Assembly (NCBI RefSeq): GCF_010894435.1
Contig: NZ_JAAIXZ010000006.1
Coordinates: 434,001 to 498,000 of the forward strand
Direction: 5' to 3'
Source: Pyxidicoccus trucidator
GTDB lineage: Bacteria > Myxococcota > Myxococcia > Myxococcales > Myxococcaceae
DNA: 64,000 bases
Below are positions 8,541 through 37,806 of this stretch, one piece after another (the stretch's first letter is position 1; every line of letters starts with the position of its first letter). The translations under genes and the position numbers were made by a program. The notes under the pieces are model-generated. The model made no database searches and was not told the origin of the DNA. It was given only the letters and a program-made list of their open reading frames with translations.

Positions 8541-9176
8541 CTACTCGCGCGGCGTCGGGCCGGAGAGCTTCCCGCGCAGCGCGCCCACCAGCATGCCGAT
8601 GGCAATCTCGTTGTTGCCGCCGTGCGGGATGATGATGTCCGCGAAGTGCTTGGACGGCTCCACGAAGCCCATGTGCATGGGGCGCACGTGGCGCAGGTAC
8701 TGGCCCACCACGTGGTCGAAGTCGCGGCCGCGGTCCTTGATGTCGCGGGTGAGCCGCCGGAGGATGCGCAGGTCGTCATCCGCGTCGACGTAGATCTTCA
8801 CGTCCATCTCGTCCCGCACCTCCTTCATGTGCAGGACGAGGATGCCCTCGATGAGGACGATGTCGCCGGGGTCCACCGTCATGGTGCGCGGCTGGCGGGA
8901 CGAGGTGACGAAGTCGTAGACGGGCTTCTGGATGGGGCGCCCGGACTTCAGCTCGCGCAGGTGCTGCACGAGCAAGTCCCGGTCGAAGGCATCCGGATGG
9001 TCGAAGTTCACCTCGCGCCGGTCAGCGAGCGGGAGGTCCTTCAAGTCTCGGTAATACGAGTCCTGATCGATGAAGGCCACGCGACAGTCAGCCAGCGCCT
9101 CGCGGACCTTGCGGGCAACGGTGGTCTTACCGGACGCAGTGCCGCCCGCAATGCCAACGACGAGGGGGGACGCCAT
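8541..9176 (-). CDS. udk: Uridine kinase
   Basis: Phosphorylates uridine or cytidine in pyrimidine salvage in the cytoplasm. 211 residues, the normal family length. The Walker A is GGTASGKTT near residue 10, followed by DQDSYYRDL (typical uridine kinase substrate loop), NFDHPDAFD, PVYDFVTSSR, IEGILVL and the R-R-L-x-R-D-x-x-x-R-G-R lid. The ATG at 9176 (MASPLVVGI) is the natural start because the upstream extension is not conserved-looking. It lies 62 bp from the MNIO gene end, on the same strand. Confidence 0.93.
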   Translation of the reverse strand: MASPLVVGIAGGTASGKTTVARKVREALADCRVAFIDQDSYYRDLKDLPLADRREVNFDHPDAFDRDLLVQHLRELKSGRPIQKPVYDFVTSSRQPRTMTVDPGDIVLIEGILVLHMKEVRDEMDVKIYVDADDDLRILRRLTRDIKDRGRDFDHVVGQYLRHVRPMHMGFVEPSKHFADIIIPHGGNNEIAIGMLVGALRGKLSGPTPRE

Positions 9177-9237
9177 GGGGGCGCGACGTACCTTACCGAG
9201 CGGGCCAGTGCAAGGCTTCGGTCCACTGGCAGACATT

Positions 9238-10887
9238 TCATCCCCGGCGGATCAGCCCGCGCCCCTGGGCCTCGGCCAGCAGCGCGGGGGGCGCCTCCTC
9301 CACCGACATGGGGAGGAAGGTCAGCTTGCGCAGCCACTCCGCCAGCCCTGGCGTCGCCGTCAGCACCTCGTGCCCCCCTCCCCTGCGGCGGGCGAGGAAG
9401 GACCAGGGGCCCGGGCCCGGCCGACGCGCCACCTGGGACAGCGACTCCAGGCCGGACATCTCCAGCGAGCCACACGCCCACGCACGCGCGGTGAGGTGGC
9501 GGCGCACCGAGCGCGCGGAGTAGACCAGCTCCGACAGGTCCACCGGGAGGGAGCCCGGCCGCACGTCCTCCGCCAGCCCCACCTGCCCTGCCCCCGGCGG
9601 CGGCACCGGGCGGAGGAACAGGGTGGGCAGGAGCATCTCCAGCGCCAGCGCCGCCGAGGCCCCCTCGTCGGGCTGCTCACGCAGGCGCCGCATGGCCCAC
9701 TTGGAGAAGACCTGACCCAGCGAGCGGCCCGTGCCGCCGAAGAGGCCTCGGTACTCGGGCGACCCGGTGAAGGCGGCCAGCTGCTCGCGCGTCCCCGCGG
9801 CAAGCAGGCGCGTGAGCGGCCATTCCCGGTCCAGCACCTCGGCCACCACGGCGAGGCGGAAGTCCATTTCCGCCAGCGTGCCCTCCACGTCGTCCACGGT
9901 GGCGGCGGCGGTGGCGCCATGGCCCGCGTCGAACAGCTCCCACGGCCGGCCCTCCCCCGTCAGCGGGGGCACGGCGACGTCGCGGGGCGGGCGCAGCGTC
10001 AGCGGAGGGCGCTCGCCCGCGGGCACCAGCGTGCGCAGGCGGCGCAGTGACACCCTGGCCACCTCGGGAGGGTGGCCGTCTCCCTCGAAGGTGACGGCGC
10101 GCAGCGAGGGACAGCGCGGAAGCAGTGACTCCAGCAGGGTGAAGAGCTCCTCGCGCACCGGCTGGGTGTGGTCGTCCACGTAGAACTGGCGCAGGCCCCG
10201 GCGCGTCACCACGCCGCCAGCGATGTGAAGCTCGACGACCTTGTCCAGCGGGAAGCCGTCCAGCCCCGTCTCCAGCGGCAGGCCCGCGGAGAGCTGGTGG
10301 CTGAAGAGGTGTCCCAAATCCAGCAGCAGCGGCAACCCGGTGCGCGAGTGCAGCCGGGCCATGAAGTCCAGCACGTGCCAGTCCCCACGCCGCGCCAGCA
10401 CGGCGGGGTTCTCCAGCACCAGGGGCAGTGAGAGGTGCCGCTGCACGTGGAGCGCATGCGCCACGCTGTCGCGGAGGCCCGCCTCGTTGAAAGGCGGCGT
10501 GAAGTAGAGGTAGCCCGGGAAGGGCTGGCCGCCCACGTGCCACCAGCCCACGTCGTTGCCCACCCACGGACTGCCCACCGCGCGCGCGTGCGCGTCCAGC
10601 TCGGCCAGCGCCGACGCCGGCTCCAGCTCCGGGCCCCAGAGGTTGAGGTGGACGGGGTGGAAGAGCACGGGCACTTCCGGGCGCCGCCGCCACATCTCCG
10701 GGAAGAGCGACGCCTGGGCTCGCGCCTCGTCCAGCGACAGGGGCGCGCTGTACTCGACGAAGTCGAAGAGGCCCGGGGACTCGTCCAGCATCCGGTACGG
10801 CTGAGGCACGTCCGCCGTGCTCAGGTTGCTGCTCAGCCCCAGGCCACGCCAGGGCAGTGTCCACGTGTCGGATTCCGCGCGCGTCAT
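9238..10887 (-). CDS. DUF692 / MNIO-family iron-dependent peptide-modifying enzyme with C-terminal extension
   Basis: 549 residues. Residues about 15-290 match the DUF692 (multinuclear non-heme iron oxidase) family known from MbnB, TglH and bufferin maturases, which oxidise Cys or other residues of precursor peptides. Candidate ligand motifs are present in family order: DFVEYSAP (E45), FHPVHLNL (H80), LENPAV (E159), LLLDLGHLFSH (D190, H193), ELHIAGG (H221), VDDHTQPV (D239, H240) and TFEGDGHPP (E268, D270). Residues about 300-549 form an additional Ala/Leu/Arg-rich domain that I do not recognise; it may replace the separate partner protein of other MNIO systems. The gene is divergent from the Cys-rich lipoprotein at 11033, its likely substrate. 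MNIO assignment is secure; the substrate is inferred. Confidence 0.85.
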   Translation of the reverse strand: MTRAESDTWTLPWRGLGLSSNLSTADVPQPYRMLDESPGLFDFVEYSAPLSLDEARAQASLFPEMWRRRPEVPVLFHPVHLNLWGPELEPASALAELDAHARAVGSPWVGNDVGWWHVGGQPFPGYLYFTPPFNEAGLRDSVAHALHVQRHLSLPLVLENPAVLARRGDWHVLDFMARLHSRTGLPLLLDLGHLFSHQLSAGLPLETGLDGFPLDKVVELHIAGGVVTRRGLRQFYVDDHTQPVREELFTLLESLLPRCPSLRAVTFEGDGHPPEVARVSLRRLRTLVPAGERPPLTLRPPRDVAVPPLTGEGRPWELFDAGHGATAAATVDDVEGTLAEMDFRLAVVAEVLDREWPLTRLLAAGTREQLAAFTGSPEYRGLFGGTGRSLGQVFSKWAMRRLREQPDEGASAALALEMLLPTLFLRPVPPPGAGQVGLAEDVRPGSLPVDLSELVYSARSVRRHLTARAWACGSLEMSGLESLSQVARRPGPGPWSFLARRRGGGHEVLTATPGLAEWLRKLTFLPMSVEEAPPALLAEAQGRGLIRRG

Positions 10888-11032
10888 TCCACGAACCTAG
10901 ACGCGCTCCACTGTCACTGCCACGGAAGCCGCGCTCTTCCTGTCGGATTGCAGCGAGACGGCACACGCTTCTCCGCTGTTGGAGCGAGCAGCTAGGTTCA
11001 CGGCGAAGTCCCCCCAACAGCGAGGAAACACC
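10888..11032. promoter_or_regulatory. Divergent promoter region between MNIO and Cys-rich peptide, with inverted repeats
   Basis: The 145-bp intergenic region carries two matching arms in opposite orientation. The left arm is GAACCTAG-N4-GCTCCA (10893-10910). The right arm, read on the minus strand, is GAACCTAG-N6-GCTCCA (10999-10980). Each arm is placed so that it could be a -35-like element pointing toward the far gene, or an operator half-site shared by both genes. GAACCT resembles -35 boxes of ECF-type sigma factors. No -10 is clear. Regulation is inferred only. Confidence 0.55.
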
Positions 11033-11386
11033 ATGAACTCCAAGTTGCTCGCCTGGTCCGCGGCACTCACGCTGGTCCTGACTGTCGGCTGCGGCCCGAG
11101 CCAGGCGCCGGAGACGCAGGAGCCGCAAGACACCCAGCAGGTGCAGGAGGCCGCCGGGTGTCCCAAGGGCCAGTACCTGTGCCTCTCGTGTGATGGCCTG
11201 AGCACGTACTGCGGCGATGCGTGCCTGGACTGCACCCCGCCCGTCGCGCCTGGAGGTGAAGTCTCGGCCGCCGCCGGCTGCCCGAAGAACCAGTACCTGT
11301 GCACGTCGTGCGACGGCCTGAGCACGTACTGCGGTGATGCGTGCCTGGACTGCATCCCGCCCGTCGCGCCCGGCAACGAGCTGTAG
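11033..11386 (+). CDS. Small Cys-rich lipoprotein with two tandem repeats; putative MNIO substrate
   Basis: 117 residues. Residues 1-20 are a signal peptide with an imperfect lipobox (LTVGC, Cys20). A Gln/Glu/Pro-rich spacer (21-39) is followed by two repeats (40-79 and 80-117), each with six cysteines spaced C-x6-C-x2-C-x6-C-x3-C-x2-C and sharing the block CDGLSTYCGDACLDC. ATG 11033 has GAGG seven bases upstream, and a terminator follows the gene. The divergent MNIO gene makes this a likely exported, Cys-modified peptide, perhaps for metal binding as in bufferins. It could instead be a disulfide-rich structural lipoprotein that is not modified. Confidence 0.8.
   Translation: MNSKLLAWSAALTLVLTVGCGPSQAPETQEPQDTQQVQEAAGCPKGQYLCLSCDGLSTYCGDACLDCTPPVAPGGEVSAAAGCPKNQYLCTSCDGLSTYCGDACLDCIPPVAPGNEL
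11150..11383 (+). repeat. Two 120-bp coding repeats in the Cys-rich peptide gene
   Basis: Units 11150-11269 and 11270-11383 encode the same 40-residue module (the second slightly shorter). Most differences fall in third codon positions or in a few spacer codons, while all six cysteines and the CDGLSTYCGDACLDC block are unchanged. This suggests an internal duplication kept under selection. Confidence 0.9.
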
Positions 11387-11433
11387 GCGGCCCCACGCGG
11401 GCCGAAGGCGAGCACGTGTGCCGCCACTGAGAG

Positions 11434-33316: not shown

Positions 33317-34549
33317 TCAGTCCGCGCGCATCGCTTCCACGGGGTCCAGCTTCGCCGCACGGGCGGCCGGGTAGATGCCGAACAGCAGCCCCACCCCGCA
33401 GCTCATCGCCAGGGCCAGCGCCACGGCCCAGGGCGGCACGAACATGGGGAAGCGCAGCACCCAGTCCGCGAGGAACACCAGGCCGAAGCCCAGGCCCACG
33501 CCCAGCGCGCCGCCCATCAGCGCCAGCAGCACCGCCTCCGTGGCGAACTGCCCGAGGATGCGCCTGCGCTTGGCGCCCAGCGCCTTGCGCACGCCAATCT
33601 CCTTCGTCCGCTCCATCACCGACACCAGCATGATGTTGAGGATGCCGATGCCGCCCACCACCAGCGACAGCAGGCACACGCCGATGCCGGCAATCGTGAT
33701 GACGACGGAGAGCTGGTTGAAGGACGCCGTCACCGACTCGTTGGTGTGCATCTCGAAGTCGTTGGGCATGTCCGACGACACGCCCCGGCGGCGGCGCAGC
33801 AGGGTGGCCACCTCGTCCTGCGCCTTCTGGAACAGCGCCGGCTCACGCGCCTGCACGTCGACGTCGAGCGAGCGGTTCTTCCCGTAGAGCTGCTGGAAGA
33901 TGCGCAGCGGCATCATCACCTGGTTGTCCAGGCTGAACATGCCCAGCATGCTCCCCCGCCGCTGCAGCACGCCAATCACGCGGAAGGGGCGGCCTTTGAT
34001 TCGCACCTCGTGGCCCACCGGGTCCATGCCGGGGAAGAGCACGTCCGCCACGTCCGTGCCCAGCACCACCACGCTCCGGCCGTCCAGCGCCTCCACCTCG
34101 TTGAAGAAGCGCCCGGACTGCACCGTCAGGCCGCTGGTCACCATGTAGTTCGTCTGCGTGCCGAAGACGCGCACCGACGGCCGCGTCTCCGCGGTGGCCG
34201 TGGCCACCTTCTGCCCGCCGTCATCGTCCGTGGGGGCCACCACGCCCACCGAGGGACAGGACTCCATGATGGCGTGCACGTCGTCCATCCCGATGTCCGG
34301 CCGCTTGGCGTACTTCGCCCAGTTGATGCGGCCGAACCCGCCCGCGGGCCACTTCGTCACCTGGAAGGTGTGGGCCCCCATCCGGCCCAGGTCCTTGTTC
34401 ACCTTCATGCGGAGGCCCTCGATGAGCCCCATCATGGTGATGACCGTCGCCACGCCGATGACGATGCCCAGCAGCGTCAGCAGCGAGCGCAGCGGGTTGC
34501 CCAGGAAGGTGCCCAGGGCCAGCCGCAGGTTGTCGAGGAAGGCTCGCAT
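33317..34549 (-). CDS. MacB/FtsX-type ABC transporter permease 2 (410 aa)
   Basis: Four transmembrane segments in MacB order: one at 15-45 (LRSLLTLLGIVIGVATVITMM), then a large periplasmic MacB_PCD domain, then three at about 285-400. The family motif GGIGILNIMLVSVMERTKEIGVRKALGA is present around residue 305 (key residues G-IGI-NIMLVSV-ER-EIG-RKA). It is the last gene of the exporter operon, 4 bp after permease 1. Two different permeases suggest a heterodimer. Confidence 0.92.
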   Translation of the reverse strand: MRAFLDNLRLALGTFLGNPLRSLLTLLGIVIGVATVITMMGLIEGLRMKVNKDLGRMGAHTFQVTKWPAGGFGRINWAKYAKRPDIGMDDVHAIMESCPSVGVVAPTDDDGGQKVATATAETRPSVRVFGTQTNYMVTSGLTVQSGRFFNEVEALDGRSVVVLGTDVADVLFPGMDPVGHEVRIKGRPFRVIGVLQRRGSMLGMFSLDNQVMMPLRIFQQLYGKNRSLDVDVQAREPALFQKAQDEVATLLRRRRGVSSDMPNDFEMHTNESVTASFNQLSVVITIAGIGVCLLSLVVGGIGILNIMLVSVMERTKEIGVRKALGAKRRRILGQFATEAVLLALMGGALGVGLGFGLVFLADWVLRFPMFVPPWAVALALAMSCGVGLLFGIYPAARAAKLDPVEAMRAD

Positions 34550-34553
34550 CGCG

Positions 34554-35792
34554 TTACTCGTACCGGAGGGCTTCCACGGGGTCCAGGTTGGCCGCGCGGG
34601 CCGCCGGCCAGATGCCGAACAACAGGCCCACCAGCGCGGCGAACGCCACCCCGCCTATCACCGTGCCCGGCTGCACGTCCGCCGCCAGTGGGGTGATGAG
34701 GGAAACAACCTTCGCCGTGCCCAGCCCCACCGTGGTTCCCAGCAGGCCTCCCACCGCGGACACGCTCGCCGCCTCCATGAGGAACTGGAAGACGATGGTG
34801 CGCTTGCGGGCGCCCAGCGCGCGCCGCACGCCAATCTCGCGCGTCCGCTCGCGCACGGACACCAGCATGATGTTCATGATGCCGATGCCACCCACCAGCA
34901 GGGTGATGAGCCCCACCCCCAGCGCCACCCCGTAGAGCGCGCCGGTGAGCTGCTCGTACGTCTGGGCAAAGGCCTCCGACTTGTTGATGGAGAAGTCGTC
35001 CGGCGCGCCCGGCGGCGTGGACCGGATGCGCCGCAGGATGCCCACGAGCTGGTCCTCCGCCCGCCGCACGTCCGCCGCGTCCGCCACCGCCATGGCAATC
35101 TCGAAGCCGCGCCCCTTGCCGAAGTTCGAATAGAACGTCTTGAAGGGGATGAAGACCACGAGGTCCATGCTCTCGTTGACGATCTTCCCCTTGCGGCTGA
35201 GCGTGCCCACCACCTGGAAGGTGCGGTTGTCGATTCGGATGGAGCGCCCCAGCGGGCTGATGCCCGCGAAGAGCGCGTCCGCCACGTCCGCGCCAATCAC
35301 CGCCACCGGCCGCGTCACCTCTTCGTCCGCCTCGGTGAGGAAGCGTCCGCCGGTGACTTCGTACCCGGAGATGGTCAGGTACTCCTGCATCACGCCCTGG
35401 ATGCGCACGGTGGACATCTGCTCGCCGCCGTGCGCCACGTCCGCCGCGCGCTGCACCGACGGGGAGATGGCGGACAGGAAGGGCGCCAGCGTCCGCAGCC
35501 GGTCCACCTGGTCCAGCGTGAAGTTCTTCCGGTTCCGGTACATCCACCAGTCGCCCTTCATCATCCACGGCCACTTGGACACGTAGAGCGTGTTGGCGCC
35601 GAACGTGGAGAGCTGCCGGTGGAAGGACGTGTTGAGTCCCTGGATGATGCCGACGATGGCCAACAGCGTGGCCACGCCGATGCCGATGCCCAGCGTGGTC
35701 AGCACCGTGCGCAGGCGGTTGGCCTTCAATGAGAAGAGGGCGATGCGAGCGCCCTCCAGCACATCCACCCGGAAGCCCAACGGCAGACTCAT
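34554..35792 (-). CDS. MacB/FtsX-type ABC transporter permease 1 (412 aa)
   Basis: Same architecture as its downstream neighbour: first segment [20 protein letters not shown], periplasmic domain with [17 protein letters not shown], then [20 protein letters not shown] and further transmembrane helices. The start overlaps the end of the ATPase gene by 4 bp (ATGA type), showing translational coupling. Exports an unknown substrate with the fusion and TolC proteins encoded upstream. Confidence 0.92.
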
Positions 35793-36541
35793 GTGCCCCC
35801 CGCCGCCAATACCGTCGTGGCCGTGCCCAGCGCCACCTCGCGGCCGGTGCCGTCCGCGACAATCTCTCCGTCGCTCAGGCGGATGGCCCGGGGGCAGCGC
35901 GCCGCCAGCTTGGGCTCGTGCGTGACGAGCACCAGCGTGTGGCCCGCCTGGTGGAGCTGCTCGAACAGCCGGACGATTTCCTCGCCCGTGGCGGAGTCCA
36001 GGTTGCCCGTGGGCTCGTCCGCCAGCAGCATGGATGGCTCGGACACCAGCGCGCGGGCAATGGCCACGCGCTGCCGCTGGCCGCCGGACAGCTCGTTGGG
36101 CTTGTGATGGATGCGGGGCGTGAGCTGCACCTTGTCCAGCGCCGCCCTCGCCCGCTCGCGGCGCTCGCGCGCCGGCATGCCCCGGTACACCAGCGGCAGC
36201 TCCACGTTGGCCAGCGCCGTCTCGCGCGGCAGCAGCTGGAACGTCTGGAAGATGAAGCCGATCTCCACGTTGCGGATGACGGCCAGCTCGTCGTCGCTCA
36301 TGCGCGACACGTCCTTGCCGTTCAGCATGTAGCGACCGCTGGTGGGCGTGTCGAGGCAGCCCAGCACGTTCATCATCGTGCTCTTGCCGGAGCCCGACTG
36401 GCCGATGATGGCCACCCACTCCCCGCGGCTGATGCCGAAGGAGACGCCGCGCAGCGCGCGCACCTCCTCGCCGCCCACGTGGAAGACGCGGGTGAGGTTC
36501 TCCACCTGGATGAGCTGCCCCGCGCCGCTGCCGTCACTCAC
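35789..36541 (-). CDS. MacB/LolD-type ABC transporter ATPase (250 aa)
   Basis: Walker [11 protein letters not shown]-loop FQTFQLLP, signature [15 protein letters not shown], Walker [13 protein letters not shown] and H-loop VTHEPKLA are all intact. This is the separate ATPase form of a MacB-type pump. GTG start at 36541, overlapping the membrane-fusion gene end by 4 bp. Confidence 0.95.
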
Positions 36542-37806
36542 GACTTCCGCCCACCCTTCATGCCGCCGGGGCCCGCGCCCGGCTCGGGCTCGCGCACCGC
36601 GTCCCCGTTGTTCAGCTCCTTGGACAGCGTGCGGTACGGGCCCTCCACCACGCGGTCCCCGTCCTTGATGCCGGTGAGGATCTCCAGCTCCGTGTCGGAG
36701 GCGATGCCCGTCGTCACCGGCTGCACCCGCGCCTTGTTGTCCGCGTCCACCACGAACACCACCTTGGCCAGGGACTCGGTGCGCTTGGCCGACAGCGTGC
36801 CGCCCTCGGCCGGGGCCTCGAAGCCCGGCAGCGTGCGCGCGGAGCGCACCGTCACCGCCTGGATGGGCACCAGCACCACGTCGTTGCGCGTCTCCGCGGA
36901 GATGCGCGCCTCGGCGCTCATGCCGGGCAGCACGCCCGGAGGCCGCGTGTCGAGCGCCACGGTGACGGGGAAGCTCGTCACCTCCGCCTCGGTGCCCGGG
37001 TTCTTGATGAGCGCCTTCTGGGCAATCTCCACCACCGAGCCGCTGAACGTCTGGCCCTCCAGCGCGTCCAGCGTCACCTCGGCGGGCTGACCCGCCTTGA
37101 GGTGCACCACCTCGTGCTCGCCCACCTCGAACTTCACCTCCATGGCGCTGAGCGCGGCGATGGTCATCACCACGTCCTCGGCCAGGTCCGAGCCACGCAC
37201 GCGCTCACCCACCTCGCGCGACAGCTCGATGACGTTGCCGTCGATGGGCGACTGGAGCGTCGTCCTGGCCAGGTCCGTCTGCGCCTGGTCCACGAAGGCC
37301 ACGTTGCGCGCCAGCATCTGCTTGGCCGACGCCACCCGCGCGTCCGCGGTGTTCTTCGCCGCGCGCGCCTGCTCCACCTCGGCGTCGGAGGCCAGCCCCT
37401 TCTTCAACAGCTCCTCCACGCGCGCCAGCTCCTGCGCCGAGCGCACCGCCTCCACCTCCGCCACCTGCGTGTCCGCGCGCGAGGCGTTCTGCGACGCCTG
37501 CGCCTGCTTCATCGCGGCCTCGTACAGGCGCTTGTCGATGCGGCCCAGCACCTGCCCCTTCTTCACCGGCTCGCCGTCCTTCACCAGCAGCTCCACCAGG
37601 TCTCCGGAGAGGCTGGAGGAGATCTTCACGGTGGTGGCCGCCTGCACCTTGCCCGCACCGGTGATGGTGCGGGTAATCGTGCCCTTGCGAGCCTTGGCAA
37701 CCTGGACCTCGAGGGACGGCGGCGGCCGCTCCTTGAGTCCGCCAGCGGTGATGGCCGCCGCACCCAGGAACAGCACACCGGCAATGGCACCCTTCCACCA
37801 CTTCAT
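36538..37806 (-). CDS. Periplasmic membrane-fusion (HlyD/MacA-like) protein (422 aa)
   Basis: N-terminal membrane anchor ([17 protein letters not shown]), first lipoyl half ([20 protein letters not shown]), a long coiled-coil hairpin of about 100 residues ([20 protein letters not shown] onward), second lipoyl half ([14 protein letters not shown]) and beta-barrel. It bridges the inner-membrane ABC complex and TolC. The start overlaps the TolC gene by 4 bp; the C-terminal tail is Gly/Pro-rich ([13 protein letters not shown]). Confidence 0.92.

Follow-up and report, generated by a model that had tools for sequence, protein, structure and literature searches.

We describe an MNIO (DUF692) enzyme of Pyxidicoccus trucidator, P0001, in which two positions of the iron site are exchanged and which, according to structural models, carries its partner protein as the C-terminal half of the same polypeptide. 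It was analysed in a window of 64,000 nucleotides (contig NZ_JAAIXZ010000006.1, positions 434,001 to 498,000). With a probability of roughly 0.6 we take P0001 to be a core MNIO made of one polypeptide and acting mainly on a substrate from another place in the genome; the Cys-repeat lipoprotein P0002, encoded head-to-head with it, would be an accessory substrate at best. The peptide chemistry of MNIOs is among the oddest known, and the iron site of these enzymes has been regarded as nearly fixed. The whole family Myxococcaceae, including Myxococcus xanthus, keeps an MNIO with two ligand positions exchanged and a built-in partner. This fused enzyme lends itself to studying the roles of ligands and partner with a single gene, and its ancestral operon with a MacAB-TolC exporter offers a lead to the substrate. 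The features of the locus are listed in Table 1.

Table 1. Coordinates of the features in the window, in order of position.
Feature	Position	Strand	Basis
Uridine kinase-like gene directly 3' of the MNIO	8541..9236	-	PF00485, E 1.9e-45
MNIO gene P0001, 549 aa (catalytic barrel and predicted fused partner domain)	9238..10887	-	PF05114, AF2 model
C-terminal domain, residues 305-549, predicted fused MNIO partner (PME-like)	9241..9975	-	AF2 model and VIA-align
Catalytic MNIO domain, residues 1-300	9988..10887	-	Foldseek 8hi7_B E 2.3e-13, 7tcr_A E 1.1e-10
His193 codon, position of iron ligand VcMbnB Asn168	10309..10311	-	Alignments; ligand list PMC8888699; invariant in clade
Asp112 codon, position of iron ligand VcMbnB His91	10552..10554	-	Alignments; ligand list PMC8888699; invariant in clade
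Intergenic region, 145 bp, between the divergent MNIO and lipoprotein genes	10888..11032	.	Gene coordinates
Cys-repeat lipoprotein gene P0002, 117 aa	11033..11386	+	ORF, homologues, selection
Lipobox-like TVGC, Cys20 predicted lipidation site	11081..11092	+	Sequence; G19-C20 invariant in 7/7 homologues
Cys repeat 1, C43-C67, spacing 7-3-7-4-3	11159..11233	+	Sequence, homologue alignment
Cys repeat 2, C83-C107	11279..11353	+	120-bp unit 88% identical to repeat 1
MacA(HlyD)-ABC-MacB-MacB exporter genes	33317..37806	-	Orthologous to the exporter ending in the MNIO in deep-branching relatives

A sequence-only reading of this DNA had proposed a compact MNIO gene on the minus strand at 9238-10887. 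The family assignment was borne out, as P0001 scores well above the curated cut-off of the superfamily profile (PF05114, 96.7 bits at a cut-off of 25, E 1.9e-27, residues 36-279 covered). The AlphaFold2 model of the full-length protein (pLDDT 91) contains the MNIO TIM barrel, and the Foldseek ranks 1-9 are all occupied by TglH, MbnB and 3BWW. By family and fold P0001 should be an Fe/O2-dependent MNIO, with iron binding and oxidation chemistry predicted from these relationships. It is, however, not compact: while MNIOs are typically about 280 aa long, P0001 has 549 aa, of which about 245 form a second domain.

This second domain bears on a further claim, that the partner protein was absent. Modelled alone, the C-terminal 245 residues gave a pLDDT of 87.7 (AF2). 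They have no Pfam match; a profile search with PF09836 did not match P0001 and in the same genome hit solely the partner of the MNIO cluster on C28. VIA-align of the domain retrieved TglI (Z 10.4 over 204 residues), NGO1945 (3DEE, Z 8.3) and MbnC (Z 6.7), followed by the best unrelated chain with only Z 4.4. Along its residues 1-245 a DUF2063-like helical part is followed by an RRE-like one, an arrangement shared with TglI and NGO1945. Since the domain matches exactly the partner proteins of MNIOs, the models indicate that the partner is fused and not missing.

In short, distant members of the clade (G171, G157 and G184-G186) a gene of its own (about 245-300 aa) takes the place of the C-terminal domain directly after the MNIO, and this position 3' of the MNIO fits a fusion of MNIO and partner in Myxococcaceae. 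Comparing the profiles of the C-terminal domain and of these separate partners gave a weak match (hhalign probability 3-6%). Therefore, a sequence-profile proof of their homology was dropped and the partner assignment rests on structure. No natural fusion of an MNIO with a full partner was found in the accessible literature. Published fusions are MovX with a fused C-terminal RRE and an engineered HvfBC fusion (PMC13419390), and an MNIO-nitroreductase fusion is known (PMC12452194). Like P0001, MovX and the engineered HvfBC have the recognition module on the same chain as the enzyme (PMC13419390), whereas the fusion in P0001 is natural, comprises a partner-like domain of full length and extends through a whole bacterial family.

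The iron site was compared with VcMbnB, whose ligands are H55, H91, E135, D165, N168, H194, D209, H211 and E238 and whose general base is D240 (PMC8888699). In the alignment the equivalents in P0001 are, in the same order, H77, D112, E159, D190, H193, H221, D238, H240 and E268, with D270 as base. Thus, the expectation that all family metal motifs are present is correct for 8 of these 10 positions (H77, E159, D190, H221, D238, H240, E268 and D270) and fails at those of H91 and N168, which are Asp112 and His193 in P0001; both replacements are able to bind metal. The swaps are invariant in 32/32 orthologues and also occur in the short proteins of G171, G157 and G184-G186. The general base Asp270 is kept, with Glu at this position in the short distant members only, and the fused members share an invariant Trp-His motif immediately behind Asp112. 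At the two swapped positions both other MNIOs of the P. trucidator genome carry His and Asn, as is canonical. Judged by its iron site, the P0001 clade appears to be a divergent MNIO clade. With TglHI and MbnBC it has in common the MNIO barrel, a partner with DUF2063-like and RRE-like parts and the eight unchanged iron-site and catalytic positions. It differs from them in the fused partner, the two swapped ligand positions and the lack of a conserved adjacent dedicated precursor.

The enzyme search over 195 Myxococcota genomes gave 77 matches, one of which is the short G171 protein; the fused enzyme is therefore present in 76 genomes, nearly all Myxococcaceae, with one copy in each. Among the named carriers are Myxococcus xanthus, Pyxidicoccus and Corallococcus species. 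The MNIO is a core gene of Myxococcaceae and near-universal there, and Myxococcus, Pyxidicoccus and Corallococcus all retain its adjacency to the uridine kinase-like gene. In the deep-branching relatives L117, L118, L119, L124, L125 and L066 an exporter operon ends with the MNIO; its other genes are a likely TolC-like gene, a MacA-like HlyD, an ABC ATPase and two MacB permeases, and the gap between the last permease and the MNIO is often a few bases. The orthologous exporter of the window (HlyD at contig 470541-471806, 76% identical) lies 22 kb upstream of the MNIO on the same strand and in the same order. G105, G113 and G118 likewise have a same-strand exporter upstream of the MNIO with a gap of 11-23 kb, and direct adjacency is lost in most Myxococcaceae. 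From the retained strand and order of the exporter it follows that the lipoprotein gene sits in a stretch that has grown between exporter and MNIO. Among the relatives this stretch (11033-33317 in the window) ranges from a few bases to more than 20 kb and looks insertion-prone.

The sequence-only reading had described the divergent 117-aa gene as a 12-Cys lipoprotein of two six-Cys repeats. Lipobox, repeats and layout were confirmed, but the mature protein has 13 Cys, 12 in the repeats and one in the lipobox. P0002 starts with a hydrophobic segment before the lipobox-like TVGC, in which the Thr at -3 is unusual, and the repeat Cys (C43/50/53/60/64/67 and C83/90/93/100/104/107) have identical spacing. 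Homologues have 2-4 repeats with nearly the same spacing. P0002 is a real gene, because all 12 repeat Cys are kept and the Ka/Ks among four congeneric copies is 0.07-0.39, indicating purifying selection. A 176-aa antisense ORF (10897-11427, minus strand) was rejected as the gene, as the signal peptide, the conserved Cys and the purifying selection are all found in the sense frame. No RNA families were found at the MNIO/lipoprotein locus.

By profile and DNA-pattern searches the lipoprotein was found in 7 of the 195 Myxococcota genomes, and no convincing homologues were detected outside these seven. Four carriers belong to the genus of the window and have the gene beside an intact MNIO; the enzyme tree needs one or two gains or losses of the lipoprotein to account for these native carriers. 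The three others belong to the genus holding Corallococcus and have the lipoprotein elsewhere in the genome, with an intact enzyme at the usual place. There the lipoprotein faces a decayed MNIO of about 91 frameshifted codons (G070) or about 17 codons (G057 and G060). All seven genes are thus head-to-head with an MNIO start, which shows that the pairing is old but, with four intact and three decayed enzymes, not obligatory. The head-to-head layout is ancestral to the lipoprotein family and the adjacent enzyme copy is dispensable in the Corallococcus group. The seven pairs probably trace to one ancestral arrangement and are then not independent. Apart from P0002, no small Cys-rich lipoprotein turned up among 49 called genes of the window, and in 437 kb of related flanks the sole true one is the P0002 homologue. 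As such lipoproteins are rare and 7/7 face the MNIO start, the link to the MNIO is better than chance. Of the 76 enzyme-bearing genomes, 69 have no lipoprotein.

The sequence-only reading knew of no described system that combines a lipoprotein substrate with divergent genes and a missing partner gene. Lipidated MNIO substrates are already published. The DAG-RiPPs DybA (DybA/DybH) and NedA (NedA/NedBC) are both lipidated and modified by an MNIO (PMC12636315), and the secreted Buf2 bufferins, with 6 or 12 Cys in one or two six-Cys units, have lipoprotein signals in about 16% of cases (PMC12452194). With its 12 repeat Cys and lipobox P0002 has the form of a Buf2 precursor, as accompanied by BufB and BufC, and the lipoprotein signal, albeit with Thr at -3, makes this putative substrate resemble the DAG-RiPPs. 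In contrast to the latter it has no CPACGMG or EGKCG core motif, and searches against NCBIfam and Pfam gave no NCBIfam, relevant Pfam or bufferin profile match. Unlike in Buf2 clusters, where precursor, MNIO and partner follow each other on one strand, P0002 is divergent, the partner is fused and has no DUF2063 signature, and most enzyme-bearing genomes have no such peptide. Of the proposed new MNIO-lipoprotein modification system, the constant head-to-head pairing and the rarity of such lipoproteins remain; the fused partner, the decayed MNIO copies beside three kept peptides, the 69 genomes without the peptide and the published lipoprotein substrates speak against it.

P0002 is a possible substrate of P0001. 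It could be the dedicated one, some of its Cys being oxidised in the cytoplasm before export, lipidation and metal binding at the surface, as in DAG-RiPPs or bufferins. The head-to-head position in all seven genomes, the rarity of small Cys-rich lipoproteins, the known substrates among the 6/12-Cys bufferins (PMC12452194) and the lipidated products DybA and NedA (PMC12636315) fit with this, as does the lipoprotein precursor of the C28 MNIO in the same genome. However, the layout is divergent instead of bufABC, EGKCG or a known bufferin signature is missing, and three genomes keep the lipoprotein beside a dead MNIO copy. Moreover, Sec-signal precursors go with PME-type 1 partners in the bufferin survey (PMC12452194), whereas the fused domain has no DUF2063 signature, a mild argument against the lipoprotein being a substrate. 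With 69/76 enzyme genomes lacking it and only 7/195 having it, the lipoprotein is not the main conserved substrate and at most an occasional extra one, and we regard a dedicated role as unlikely. We give about even chances to the opposite idea, that the lipoprotein is unrelated to the enzyme and is a small disulfide- or metal-stabilised surface lipoprotein in an insertion-prone stretch, which shares nothing but the upstream region. Its place in the variable MacB-MNIO stretch, its sporadic distribution, its survival without an intact adjacent MNIO and the strictly kept, evenly spaced Cys in 2-4 repeats, typical of structural Cys, agree with this. Against it stand the 7/7 genes facing the MNIO start and the rarity of comparable lipoproteins among neighbouring genes; the 7/7 count is more linkage than a mere passenger need show and also counts against our preferred reading.

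The swaps could also mark a clade that has left MNIO chemistry, P0001 being a TIM-barrel enzyme that uses a different metal or catalyses a different reaction, or else a protein with a binding function. Both exchanged ligand positions are invariant, and HvfB mutants in the site-3 Asn and Asp ligands are inactive (PMC13419390). We nevertheless consider this improbable, as Asp and His can both bind metal, the other eight catalytic positions are kept, including the general base (Glu in the short distant members only), and a retained partner domain makes sense only for peptide modification. Under the reading we prefer, P0001 would be a one-polypeptide holoenzyme of MNIO barrel and C-terminal substrate-binding partner (PME/DUF2063-RRE-like), from a clade of Myxococcota whose iron site is rebuilt, Asp112 and His193 replacing His and Asn. 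Its gene would ancestrally have closed a TolC-MacA-MacB exporter operon. We infer the functional link to the exporter and a substrate in trans, most likely a ribosomal peptide or protein from another genomic locus. The lineage-restricted 12-Cys lipoprotein would have come to lie head-to-head with the MNIO in the variable exporter-MNIO stretch and may be an accessory substrate that is modified before export and lipidation. A bolder version, in which this clade with its rebuilt iron site and, in Myxococcaceae, fused partner performs a new oxidation of an in-trans substrate exported by MacAB-TolC and has recruited the lipoprotein secondarily, is speculative and rather doubtful.

Several loci in related genomes deserve mention. 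Next to the short Asp/His-clade MNIOs of G157 and G184-G186 (L177-L180) the partner has its own gene (about 245-290 aa), and nothing recognisable as a precursor was found near them. In G171 (L145 6214-14001) the distant clade MNIO lies in line with the separate partner gene and with genes for two Cys-rich proteins, one secreted, with 39 Cys and a MYXO-CTERM-like tail, the other with 138 Cys in more than 1390 aa; these Cys-rich proteins could be giant protein substrates. Some Archangium/Cystobacter-like genomes have, in the space separating MNIO and uridine kinase, a 16-Cys protein of 311-333 aa (L067 4433-5368, L069 7813-8814) that is either a lipoprotein or secreted and matches no Pfam family. 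A Cys-rich protein as constant MNIO neighbour was dismissed, as neither these nor the G171 giants are common to the whole family. Several relatives labelled Archangium have a DoxX-like gene facing the MNIO, and bufferin clusters often contain DoxX genes (PMC12452194).

In the P. trucidator genome itself a separate partner adjoins both other MNIOs. The canonical MNIO of the C28 cluster has an 88-aa lipoprotein with AEGSCG-type motifs directly upstream (L001 1087-1353) and a DUF2063 partner downstream, and this is likely an oxazolin/bufferin-type DAG-RiPP cluster. A public record titled Comamonas sp. KCTC 72670 (L099) has a Myxococcus-type locus and is probably mislabelled.
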